This document shows, in pieces, positions 42,890 to 45,203 of a stretch of 64,000 bases of DNA; the stretch's first letter is position 1; each line of letters begins with the position of its first letter. Below the pieces are notes generated by a model. It ran no database searches and was not told the DNA's origin. It worked only from the letters and a program-made list of their open reading frames with translations. The stretch is from Pseudomonas svalbardensis (GTDB lineage Bacteria > Pseudomonadota > Gammaproteobacteria > Pseudomonadales > Pseudomonadaceae), in the NCBI RefSeq assembly GCF_030053115.1, contig NZ_CP125619.1, positions 2,429,501 to 2,493,500 of the forward strand. Reading direction: 5' to 3'. The translations under genes were made by a program, and so were the position numbers.

Positions 42890-43069
42890 TCAGAAACTCC
42901 AGGGGATGGTCGGTCTCGCGGTGGGGGGCGATCATCCCATGGAGGTTGCGGCGCATTCCAGCGCAGTCTAACGGACGGTCATGTTCCTTTGGTCAGCGTT
43001 AGGGACCAGATATCAACGTCCTGCTAAACACCATATTTGCAATAACCCACCAATGCGAAGTTGCATTCC
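42890..43069. other. Intergenic stretch before the IR-bounded unit
   Basis: No gene seen. The promoter of the exported hypothetical should lie here. Near its right end TTGCATTC at 43061 begins a set of TTGCAT repeats that continue into the unit. Confidence 0.4.
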
Positions 43070-43312
43070 ACTTGCCCACCCGTTTGCATTCGGCCTGACC
43101 AGTCATTTGCATTCGTTCTGATCACCGATTGCATCGGATTTGGCCAGCACGCTTTGTAACCATGATCGGCAGAGAACGGCCAAAAGCAGACCATGGACAC
43201 GCAGCTAATACTTCAGTAGTGTGCAAAAAATATGCCGCTTTCCCCCTTCTTGATGTCGCGTTTACAGACTCGATTTTTTGATTGTTCAAGGGATTACACA
43301 TGGACATGGAGT

Positions 43313-43351
43313 GTTATGCGACATCGCATGCCGCAAAATTAATTGTTATGC
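43313..43351 (+). repeat. Two attC/attI-like core sites (GTTATGC) before the GNAT gene
   Basis: GTTATGC occurs at 43313-43319 and 43345-43351. Both fit the integron core GTTRRRY where cassettes are joined, and the second precedes the GNAT gene by 46 bases, as in a cassette leader. Confidence 0.5.
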
Positions 43352-43396
43352 CAAAAGCCGTACGGCACCTCAAAGTTGAATGGTCGGAGCAATAAA

Positions 43397-43834
43397 GTGG
43401 AAATCAAGATTGATATATTGGATTCTCCAACAGAAAAAGATCAGGGAGTTCTGAATAATAGGTTCTCAGAATATCTTCGAATTCAATATCCAAATCTACC
43501 GCCAGAATCGGAAGATAAAATATTTATGGTGGTTGCACACGATGAAGTAGGCGACTACATCGGTGCAATAAGCTGTAATTGTTACTGGGATGGCTTAGAA
43601 ATTGATACCTTTTGGGTTAAGGAATCTCATCGCGGTAGAAAAATCGGTTCTATGCTATTGGAAAAAGCAGAAACGATTGGCGCCAACAATGGGGCAGTAG
43701 TTGCATTCTTAAAAACCGTTGATGCTAAACAGTTCTATGAGCAGCATGGGTATGAGATTTATGGTGTTCTTGAGGATCGACCAATCGGGACTAACTTGTA
43801 TCATTTAAAGAAACGGCTAGTAAAACATGCATAA
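43397..43834 (+). CDS. GNAT-family N-acetyltransferase (cassette gene)
   Basis: A 145-residue protein from a GTG start with GGAG ten bases upstream. GNAT core: FMVVAHDEVGDYIGAISCN (strand 2-3), DTFWVKESHRGRKIGSMLLEKAE (acetyl-CoA loop RGRKIG) and AKQFYEQHGYEIYG (C-terminal motif B). GC content is far below the flanking Pseudomonas genes and codons such as ATA and AGA are frequent, showing foreign origin. The stop lies inside GCATAAC, the start of an attC-like site. The substrate is unknown; it has no specific similarity to aminoglycoside acetyltransferases that I can see. Confidence 0.88.
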   Translation: MEIKIDILDSPTEKDQGVLNNRFSEYLRIQYPNLPPESEDKIFMVVAHDEVGDYIGAISCNCYWDGLEIDTFWVKESHRGRKIGSMLLEKAETIGANNGAVVAFLKTVDAKQFYEQHGYEIYGVLEDRPIGTNLYHLKKRLVKHA

Positions 43835-43899
43835 CAACTGGTTCAAACCGTTCGCTTCGCTCACTGGGACGGGCTAAAGCCCGCCCCTTAACCAAATGC
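43829..43899 (+). repeat. attC-like site behind the GNAT gene
   Basis: Begins GCATAAC (R'' core, overlapping the stop codon), then AACTGGTTCAAACC, an imperfect hairpin with GGGACGGGCTAAAGCCCGCCCC, and TTAACCAAATGC. The arms pair as in an integron attC (GCAT..TGGTT with AACCAAATGC), but the expected right core GTTRRRY is reduced to ATGC, so the site seems damaged. No integrase gene is nearby. Confidence 0.6.
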
Positions 43900-44007
43900 T
43901 GGTCAGCGTCCGCATTGGGTCGTTCTCTGCCGGTTTTGTCCACGAAGCGTCCTGGTAGAATCCGACGCAAATAGCTGGTCAGGTCGAATGCAAATGGGTG
44001 GGCAAGT

Positions 44008-44423
44008 ATGTGTAATCACCCAGCCAAAAAACGGGCGAAGAAATTCTCGGCTTTTGATGCGCATAAACACGTTTCAGGGAGCGCGTTTAAAGACACTCGG
44101 TGTTACGTCCTAACGGCTACAACGCCTTGCGTCGTTACCTACGCGTGCGCCAGAATCCGCTGGCTTGTGCGCCTGTGGTGCGGGCTATATCGTTTCCCTG
44201 TCACTGAAAAACAGTGACCGGGTTTGGTAGACCCGTAGCATCGACGCATAGCGTCACCTTTGGCGGTCCTTTCCCAGGGCTGCGGTTTCATGGTGGCCAT
44301 GCGTAGGGCTCCTCCGGGGGCGCCGGTTCCGATGCCCGGTCTACCAACCTCCGTATGGCCGCCACCCTCCGTTTGGTAGCGAGATGGTGATGGCTCCAAT
44401 TAATCAGCATCGGAGTTCCATCT
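44008..44423 (+). other. Structured leader region upstream of DUF6124 gene
   Basis: No credible gene. GTCACTG-AAAAA-CAGTGAC forms a perfect hairpin (44201-44219). TTTGGTAGACC (44223-44233) is complementary to GGTCTACCAA (44338-44347), and a third half, TTTGGTAG, follows at 44372-44379, so alternative pairings are possible. This looks like a structured 5' leader or a mobile repeat attached to DUF6124 genes. The DUF6124 start follows ATCGGAGTTCCATCT. Confidence 0.45.
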
Positions 44424-44688
44424 ATGTTCAAAGTTACGCCCAACCCCCCGAATACCGGTCCGGTACCCTACGACGTCTTTCGTGATCTTGACCCCAAGAA
44501 AATGACAGAGGCGGCCGACCGCGCCCTCAGTTTCTACCTCAACCCCGGGGCGTCGAAAACGCAGATACCGCCCCCTCACCGACTTGACGGACGGCCCACG
44601 ACGCCAAACGATGCTGGTGCTGCAACGGGTCATCATGTTGGGTGAGTTAGCGGTCAATCGCGTACTGGATAACCACAAGCCTGGGTAG
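44424..44688 (+). pseudogene. DUF6124-family gene with internal deletion and frameshift
   Basis: Starts MFKVTPNPPNTGPVPYDVF, the conserved start of the DUF6124 family of Pseudomonas, and continues LDPKKMTEAADRALSFYLNP. The original frame then runs into unrelated residues and stops at 44645, while the frame shifted by one encodes the typical C-terminus (TMLVLQRVIMLGELAVNRVLD) up to a TAG at 44686-44688. The middle ~30 codons of the usual ~120-residue protein are missing. Probably inactive. Confidence 0.8.
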
Positions 44689-44876: not shown

Positions 44877-45203
44877 TCAGCCCCCACGTCGCACCGGATA
44901 GCTCTTGATCACATCCAGAAACTCAATGCGACGTTCGCTGACCAGCAGCTGCGGGAGCAGCAGTTCATACGCCTGTCGATACGGCTTGCTCAGGTGACGC
45001 GTGATGAAGTCGTCCTTGCTGCAGGTCCAGGTTTCGTAGAGCACCAGGGTGTTCGGGTCGTCCTGGAGTTGGTGGACCCAGGTGTTGACGAAGTCCGGCT
45101 CGGCCGACATCTGGTGCACCACGTCCAGCAGCCGTTCTTTCATTTCGGCGAAACGTTCCGGTTTGGCCGGCAGGTAAACAATAAACGCGACTTGATCACT
45201 CAT
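44877..45203 (-). CDS. ABM-domain (antibiotic biosynthesis monooxygenase-like) protein
   Basis: A 108-residue dimeric alpha+beta barrel protein: VAFIVYLPAKPERFAEMKERLLDVV, then NTLVLYETWTCSKDDFITRHLSKPY. Proteins of this type are quinol monooxygenase-like (YgiN). ATG preceded by AAGGTGATGA. It follows the GST gene by 28 bases in the same direction, so the two were probably cotranscribed in a detoxification role. Confidence 0.85.
   Translation of the reverse strand: MSDQVAFIVYLPAKPERFAEMKERLLDVVHQMSAEPDFVNTWVHQLQDDPNTLVLYETWTCSKDDFITRHLSKPYRQAYELLLPQLLVSERRIEFLDVIKSYPVRRGG

Follow-up and report, generated by a model that had tools for sequence, protein, structure and literature searches.

How does a single integron-like cassette come to lie in a Pseudomonas chromosome, enclosed by inverted repeats and with no enzyme of its own to move it? 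The question is raised by a locus in the 64,000-nucleotide stretch of the Pseudomonas svalbardensis genome analyzed here (hereafter, the window), which belongs to a genome of 6.36 Mb in a single contig (G000); its relatives are likewise Pseudomonas. The explanation that we consider probable is that positions 43054–44022 (approximately 969 bp) constitute a non-autonomous IS21-type element, which resembles a mobile insertion cassette in combining IS ends with passenger DNA and lacking istA/istB, and which carries an integrase-less integron dock with a GNAT cassette, both presumably moved in trans.

The element is delimited by tips of the form TG..CA, and each end contains several degenerate repeats of approximately 23 bp. 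Alignment of 27 termini distinguished two end types, an L type with four such repeats and an R type with three, the usual tips being TGCG.. and TGGG.., respectively. According to this alignment, the left end of the window element (43054–43176, forward strand) is of the L type, with the tip TGCGAAGTTGCA and repeats at 43060–43081, 43082–43104, 43105–43127, and 43128–43150, and the right end (43932–44022, reverse strand) is of the R type, with the tip TGGGTGATTACA (reverse complement) and repeats within 43996–44022, 43973–43995, and 43949–43972. A repeat search paired 43070–43110 with 43967–44007 as inverted repeats of 41 nt with 90% complementarity, the outer 33 bp of which matched at 31 of 33 positions, compared with a best terminal match of 19/33 in 20,000 shuffles of the region. 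The earlier note had taken these 33-bp inverted repeats for the termini of the unit; the repeats are real, but they are sub-terminal, the tips lying at 43054 and 44022. Such ends are not confined to this locus. A search with the R end, in which two candidate stretches were scored per genome and L ends were also picked up, gave matches in 180 of 398 Pseudomonas genomes, and two unannotated phage records hold part of an L end.

Between the ends, the ORF listing (at least 60 aa) contained only the GNAT frame (43343–43834) and one 61-aa ORF on the opposite strand; istA/istB and intI were absent from the element in this listing, in agreement with the earlier note, which had seen neither integrase nor transposase. 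The order of the passenger DNA is palindrome arm, a segment designated LE, attI left half, GNAT cassette with attC, attI right half, and palindrome arm. The left arm (PR; 43167–43191, forward strand; CGGCAGAGAACGGCCAAAAGCAGAC) lies at the junction of end and cargo, and the right arm (43908–43932, reverse strand) is its inverted partner. A second, inner unit (approximately 43168–43931) is the piece that most relatives have in common. The arm was rejected as a search pattern because it was uninformative (matches in 8 of 19 genomes, 1–4 each, with 0–1 per genome and strand for a control pattern). A short repeat with ends like CCGACTTTTTCAACAGAATCGG was observed inserted in palindrome arms (L050 5100–5200, L063, and L087), and the arms may be a favored target.

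The cassette cargo is a GNAT acetyltransferase gene with a GTG start encoding 145 aa (43397–43834, forward strand; Pfam Acetyltransf_7, E = 7.5e-14). The low GC content ascribed to it was borne out, with 44.7% at 43001–44000 versus 61.1% and 58.4% in the adjoining kilobases. The dN/dS between the window copy and 10 others ranged from 0.05 to 0.22 (10 pairwise comparisons; L043 was excluded for an internal stop, and L009 was not included), and by this measure the gene is under purifying selection. A promoter consensus scan, a weak method for Pseudomonas, found one promoter-like site, within the GNAT gene, and none upstream. The GTTATGC cores described before the gene and the GCATAAC over its stop codon were recovered at 43313–43319, 43345–43351, and 43829–43835, the last being the R'' box of an attC (43829–43904, forward strand) with the G at 43898 as the cassette end and a hybrid R' box, GCTGGTC (43898–43904). 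Window 43827–43896 matched attC repeats of other Pseudomonas with best identities of 95–97% over 65–70 bp (G008, G014, G013, and G001); beyond these were many weaker matches to attC arrays (examples span 83–97%), and some matching repeats sit in arrays adjoining intI, full in G014 and split in G001. Judged by this similarity to array repeats, the site previously called attC-like is a genuine attC. Folding alone was weak evidence, as 9 and 5 of 200 shuffles folded equally well. A reading of the site as an attC without an R' box was dropped, the right side having turned out to be part of the dock.

The surroundings of the cassette departed from the earlier picture of a bare cassette beside stray cores, as the gene appears to sit in a remnant integron dock without intI. 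The left half of the dock (43232–43323, forward strand) is attI-like; alignment with L073 shows its homology to the stretch that lies immediately upstream of the intI gene in other Pseudomonas. The window leader (43228–43330) scored 54, 42, and 38 against the intI-adjacent attI of L073, L074, and L075, the maxima of 1000 dinucleotide shuffles being 30.5, 31, and 30.5, and the leader of L062 matched the attI of L074, at another place in the same genome, over 147 bp at 80% identity (E = 6e-30), directly upstream of the divergent intI start. The homology between leaders and intI regions begins at or beside the intI start codon; upstream lies the different segment of approximately 55 bp, LE (43177–43231, forward strand), which is found in many leaders and occupies the place of the intI gene start in complete integrons, homology to intI-adjacent attI starting only past it. 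Because the homology starts at the intI start and LE lies upstream, the dock looks like an attI without its intI. The leader, which forms the left part of the unit, also precedes other cassettes and had matches in 20 of 398 Pseudomonas genomes; a second leader used as query had matches in 46 of the 398, attI regions adjoining intI included. No phage record with the leader was found.

The two GTTATGC cores (43313–43351, forward strand) are 32 bp apart, and the cassette begins at one of them. The window, L037, L038, L046, and L053 have the 32-bp stretch between the cores, and the others (L009, L039–L041, L043, and L057) lack it and keep one core (altered in L010); this pattern could reflect either a deletion between direct repeats or the trace of an integrase.

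The right half of the dock reads TTGGTCAGCG.. and corresponds in the window to RE (43899–43922, forward strand), which follows the GNAT attC as G|CTGGTCAGCGTCCGCATTGGGTCG. In G126 (L098) and G241 (L099), a different cassette, a 142-aa ORF beginning MNTFET that is the same in both genomes, is followed by G|TTGGTCAGC[G/A]TCCGC..TGGGTC. Since one right boundary stands behind two cassettes, the right half belongs to the dock, and the R' box of the last attC is a hybrid, as insertion by an integrase predicts. The sharing of both dock halves by two different cassettes likewise points to integrase insertion, and the presence of an attI is supported by homology for its left half and by sharing between cassettes for its right half. 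Only two different fillings of a complete dock were seen, because both platforms with another cassette carry the same one. Searching for an empty dock with the right half as a pattern (at most three mismatches) gave matches in 36 of 398 genomes, and no empty dock was present among the 21 loci inspected. Four of these were known dock/GNAT loci (L257, L274, L276, and L281), L268 (G107) showed by eye what looks like a further attC and then the right half, with no leader in the stretch examined, and the rest looked unrelated.

The dock-plus-GNAT unit was present at 12 loci in 11 genomes, namely the window, G029, G019, Irchel s3h17 (twice), P. moorei, P. arsenicoxydans (G249), P. quercus (G167), P. 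frederiksbergensis (G074), P. laurylsulfatiphila, G129, and G296; GNAT copies in which no leader was detected (L042, L044, L045, and L281) were not counted. All or most of the inner unit occurs in L009, L010, L037–L041, L043, and L046 with unrelated flanks. The right half was kept at 11 of the 12 loci, each time with C for the first T, and the P. frederiksbergensis locus is rearranged there. Only the window copy has IS21-type ends on both sides of the unit. L038 has one on one side only, at the loci of P. frederiksbergensis and G296 the nearest one is 1.4–1.6 kb away, and the stretches scanned at the other eight loci held no IS21-type end, only palindrome-arm pieces or a distant fragment. Because the window copy alone has both, IS21-type ends cannot account for all of the spread of the unit.

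A possible source of the missing transposase emerged in other Pseudomonas genomes, in line with the earlier suggestion to look for one with matching ends. In L182 (G355), genes for IstA and IstB are followed by an end that matched the L profile at E = 5e-15, and an L end lies 1.8 kb upstream of istA; the left ends of the window element and of this IS21-family element are identical at 81 of 101 positions. Thirty IstA loci were fetched. Behind istB, such an end is present at the three complete ones with 71–100% identity to L182 (L198, which is identical to L182; L199; and L200); the fourth copy (L201) is split by a contig end, and two pieces from its genome (L231/L232) show one end each. The 26 other loci (36–43% identity) have no such end, save a 7.4-bit match inside istA of L226. 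An upstream end was found in L182, L228, L230, and L231, and no left end was found at L229, which has the IS21 genes and a right end. The GNAT gene is not native to this IS; what the IS carries is a 346-aa ORF without a Pfam match. The ends are thus likely to belong with one clade of IS21 (istA/istB), which is the predicted helper candidate within the genus. A search of G000 limited to this IstA gave no match, and no intI exceeded the TIGR02249 family cut-off there (the best match, at E = 3.2e-23, covered part of the model); for these reasons, the window copy looks stranded at present.

The proposal of the earlier note that the unit is a non-autonomous carrier of cassettes predicted other contents between the same termini, and these occur elsewhere in the genus with varied cargo. 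Inward end pairs enclose other cargo at 19 further loci, including L050, L098, L145–L147, L155, L178, L179, L191, and L195. Two of them, L050 and L098, hold another attI and cassette, to which extent the proposal stood. L050 (P. fragi plasmid pAd12) is a 1.3-kb unit between an end pair, with an attI of which 43 bp match the L074 attI at 86% (E = 2.8e-10) and a cargo gene whose end looks attC-like by eye, and L098 (G126) has the dock with the MNTFET cassette between an end pair, its sister L099 having one end beside the leader. The proposal was too narrow in that other carriers often hold non-integron cargo, and most dock-plus-GNAT loci lack the end pair. Such cargo includes an Avs3a defence homologue (L146), a DUF2971 protein together with a further large ORF (L145), metabolic operons named by eye from sequence (L147 and L155), an AAA_13 ATPase gene (L179), and, in G005 (L148/L149), a stretch of up to about 26 kb that closely resembles a plasmid region in which chromate, nickel, and mercury genes are annotated.

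Several further settings of these ends were observed. The carriers with an AAA ATPase gene in L162, L165, and L179 begin right after a recombinase gene cluster that is similar to the ginABCD genes of GInts in gene order and gene sizes. CBASS-type genes (with the annotations SAVED, ThiF, and DncV-like) adjoin an L-type end in L164, the record of a small plasmid from P. aeruginosa. A segment of approximately 7 kb with merRTPCAB and IS66 transposase genes has an L-type end 81 bp inward of its left edge (L161, 12001; L166–L169, 9001); the segment is common (99–100%) to pQBR57, pQBR103, pQBR55, p716811-VIM, and pF045_1. This mer transposon, which we take to be Tn5042-like, was considered as an autonomous partner on account of its L-type end and was rejected because of the internal position of that end in the shared segment; the mer operon looks as if it was once cargo of such a carrier.

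The flanks of the end pairs carried a signal of target duplication. Five of an initial six pairs agreed at 4 of 5 flanking bases, and among the 720 pairings only the true one reached so high a score. A larger run, overlapping this set, started from 23 loci, 20 of which had an inward pair and 15 of which had both tips found (L162, L165, and L179, among the five dropped because a tip was not found, have the same flank). In these 15 pairs, 40 of 75 positions were equal, compared with a mean of 20.5 for shuffled pairings, and none of 20,000 shuffles scored as high. Eight pairs matched at 4 or 5 of 5 bases and seven at 0–2 of 5, and two are R/R pairs; L050 and L185 have perfect 6-bp duplications despite low 5-base scores, and L146 scored 1/5 when paired with an inner end (larger run) and 4/5 with the outer end (six-pair set). 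The window copy is flanked by ACCAA/GCCAA (4/5), and its own insertion is not clean, because the left flank 43004–43053 is common to a second carrier in the same genome. Three genomes (G283, G420, and G421) join window 42964–42987 to 44879–44895 with 27–137 bp between; there is no exact empty site, because relatives without the element also lack the neighboring C4-RNA module. This module (44187–44645) comprises a C4 antisense RNA (44286–44369), its a1/b1 target (44187–44239) just under the gathering score, and, downstream of both, a small ORF (44424–44645); further copies occur in relatives (at least seven matches in G070), and G283, G420, and G421 lack the module at this locus.

These distributions bear on other explanations. 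An unlikely one is that the locus is a passive remnant, a decayed chromosomal integron fragment lying by chance between dispersed repeats and spread only by homologous recombination at palindrome arms and transfer of flanking DNA. It would fit the 11 of 12 dock-plus-GNAT loci without a full IS21-type end pair in the stretches scanned, the half or whole palindrome arm found at each intact boundary of the unit, and the finding of neither enzyme in G000; the inward end pairs with a duplication signal that hold other attI-cassette cargo in L050 and L098 argue against it. That an integrase placed the cassette at a non-integron genomic site of the attG type, the surrounding repeats being unrelated, seems very improbable. 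A lone single cassette without intI is what such an event would leave, but the left flank is attI-derived, the right flank is common to a different cassette, and both flanks are common to 11 of the 12 loci, so that the shared dock halves already contradict it.

The ends themselves might instead be those of a different transposase that binds several sites in each end. Tn7-like elements have TG..CA tips, several repeats of approximately 23 bp, and duplications of approximately 5 bp, all compatible with what was found here, as is cargo of up to about 26 kb. We nevertheless consider this assignment improbable, given that matching ends stand beside istA/istB of one IS21 clade and not beside the 26 other IstA loci (the single 7.4-bit match aside), and given the 81/101 identity of the window and L182 left ends.

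For the non-autonomous IS21-type element with an integrase-less dock, a course of events can be proposed. Loss of intI from a Pseudomonas integron would have left attI beside LE, in keeping with the homology described above. IntI acting in trans would then insert cassettes into the dock at G|TT, as the two cassettes with common dock halves suggest. In the GNAT lineage, the crossover GTT has become GCT or TCT, a change that probably fixed the cassette. IstA/IstB of one IS21 clade could bind the repeats of approximately 23 bp and move dock and cassette with a target duplication of 5–6 bp; the similarity of the ends and the duplication signal are consistent with such transposition in trans. Copies without such ends probably spread by palindrome-arm exchange or lost their ends, which is the weakest step. 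A wider reading, which we offer only tentatively, is that transposase-less IS21-type vehicles throughout the genus move many kinds of genes (defence, metal resistance, and metabolic operons) and exchange cargo by way of their conserved palindromic arms; among the cargo would be the integrase-less dock as one class, filled in trans and then travelling as a unit, in a two-stage relay from integron to transposon.

Several known systems share parts of this organization. A mobile insertion cassette (MIC) consists of IS-type ends and a passenger gene without a transposase and is presumed to move in trans. The window element is like MICs and other transposase-less IS derivatives in these components, and it differs from MICs in its multi-repeat IS21-type ends, its integron-dock passenger, and its membership in a family with many cargo types. 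An integron mobilization unit (IMU) lies between two copies of a MITE-like unit; it likewise places an integron part without its own integrase between ends that a transposase could use in trans, whereas the ends here are the L and the R end of one IS21-type element, and a chromosomal Pseudomonas attI with a GNAT cassette takes the place of a class 1 resistance integron. A CALIN, defined by at least two attC without intI, also lacks the integrase, but the window unit has a single attC and keeps both attI halves. The end repeats and TG tips are those of the IS21-family elements in L182, L228, and L230, from which the window element differs in lacking istA/istB. attG insertion places a cassette outside a complete integron (PMC12901181), unlike the attI-derived site here. 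GInts are cargo-carrying Pseudomonas islands with ginABCD and site-specific integration (PMC5385486); the window element has no ginABCD-type genes, although three carriers with its ends (L162, L165, and L179) adjoin gin-like genes.

No description of IS21-type ends around an integron dock was recognised in searches of the open-access literature, which is no proof of absence. Because the ends match in so many Pseudomonas genomes and in one case enclose an Avs3a homologue, the family may be an overlooked general vehicle. With the IstA/IstB clade, a candidate helper enzyme is now testable. An integrase-less dock between transposase-less ends would offer cassettes a possible route out of integrons and into chromosomes and plasmids, where they would settle as single genes.
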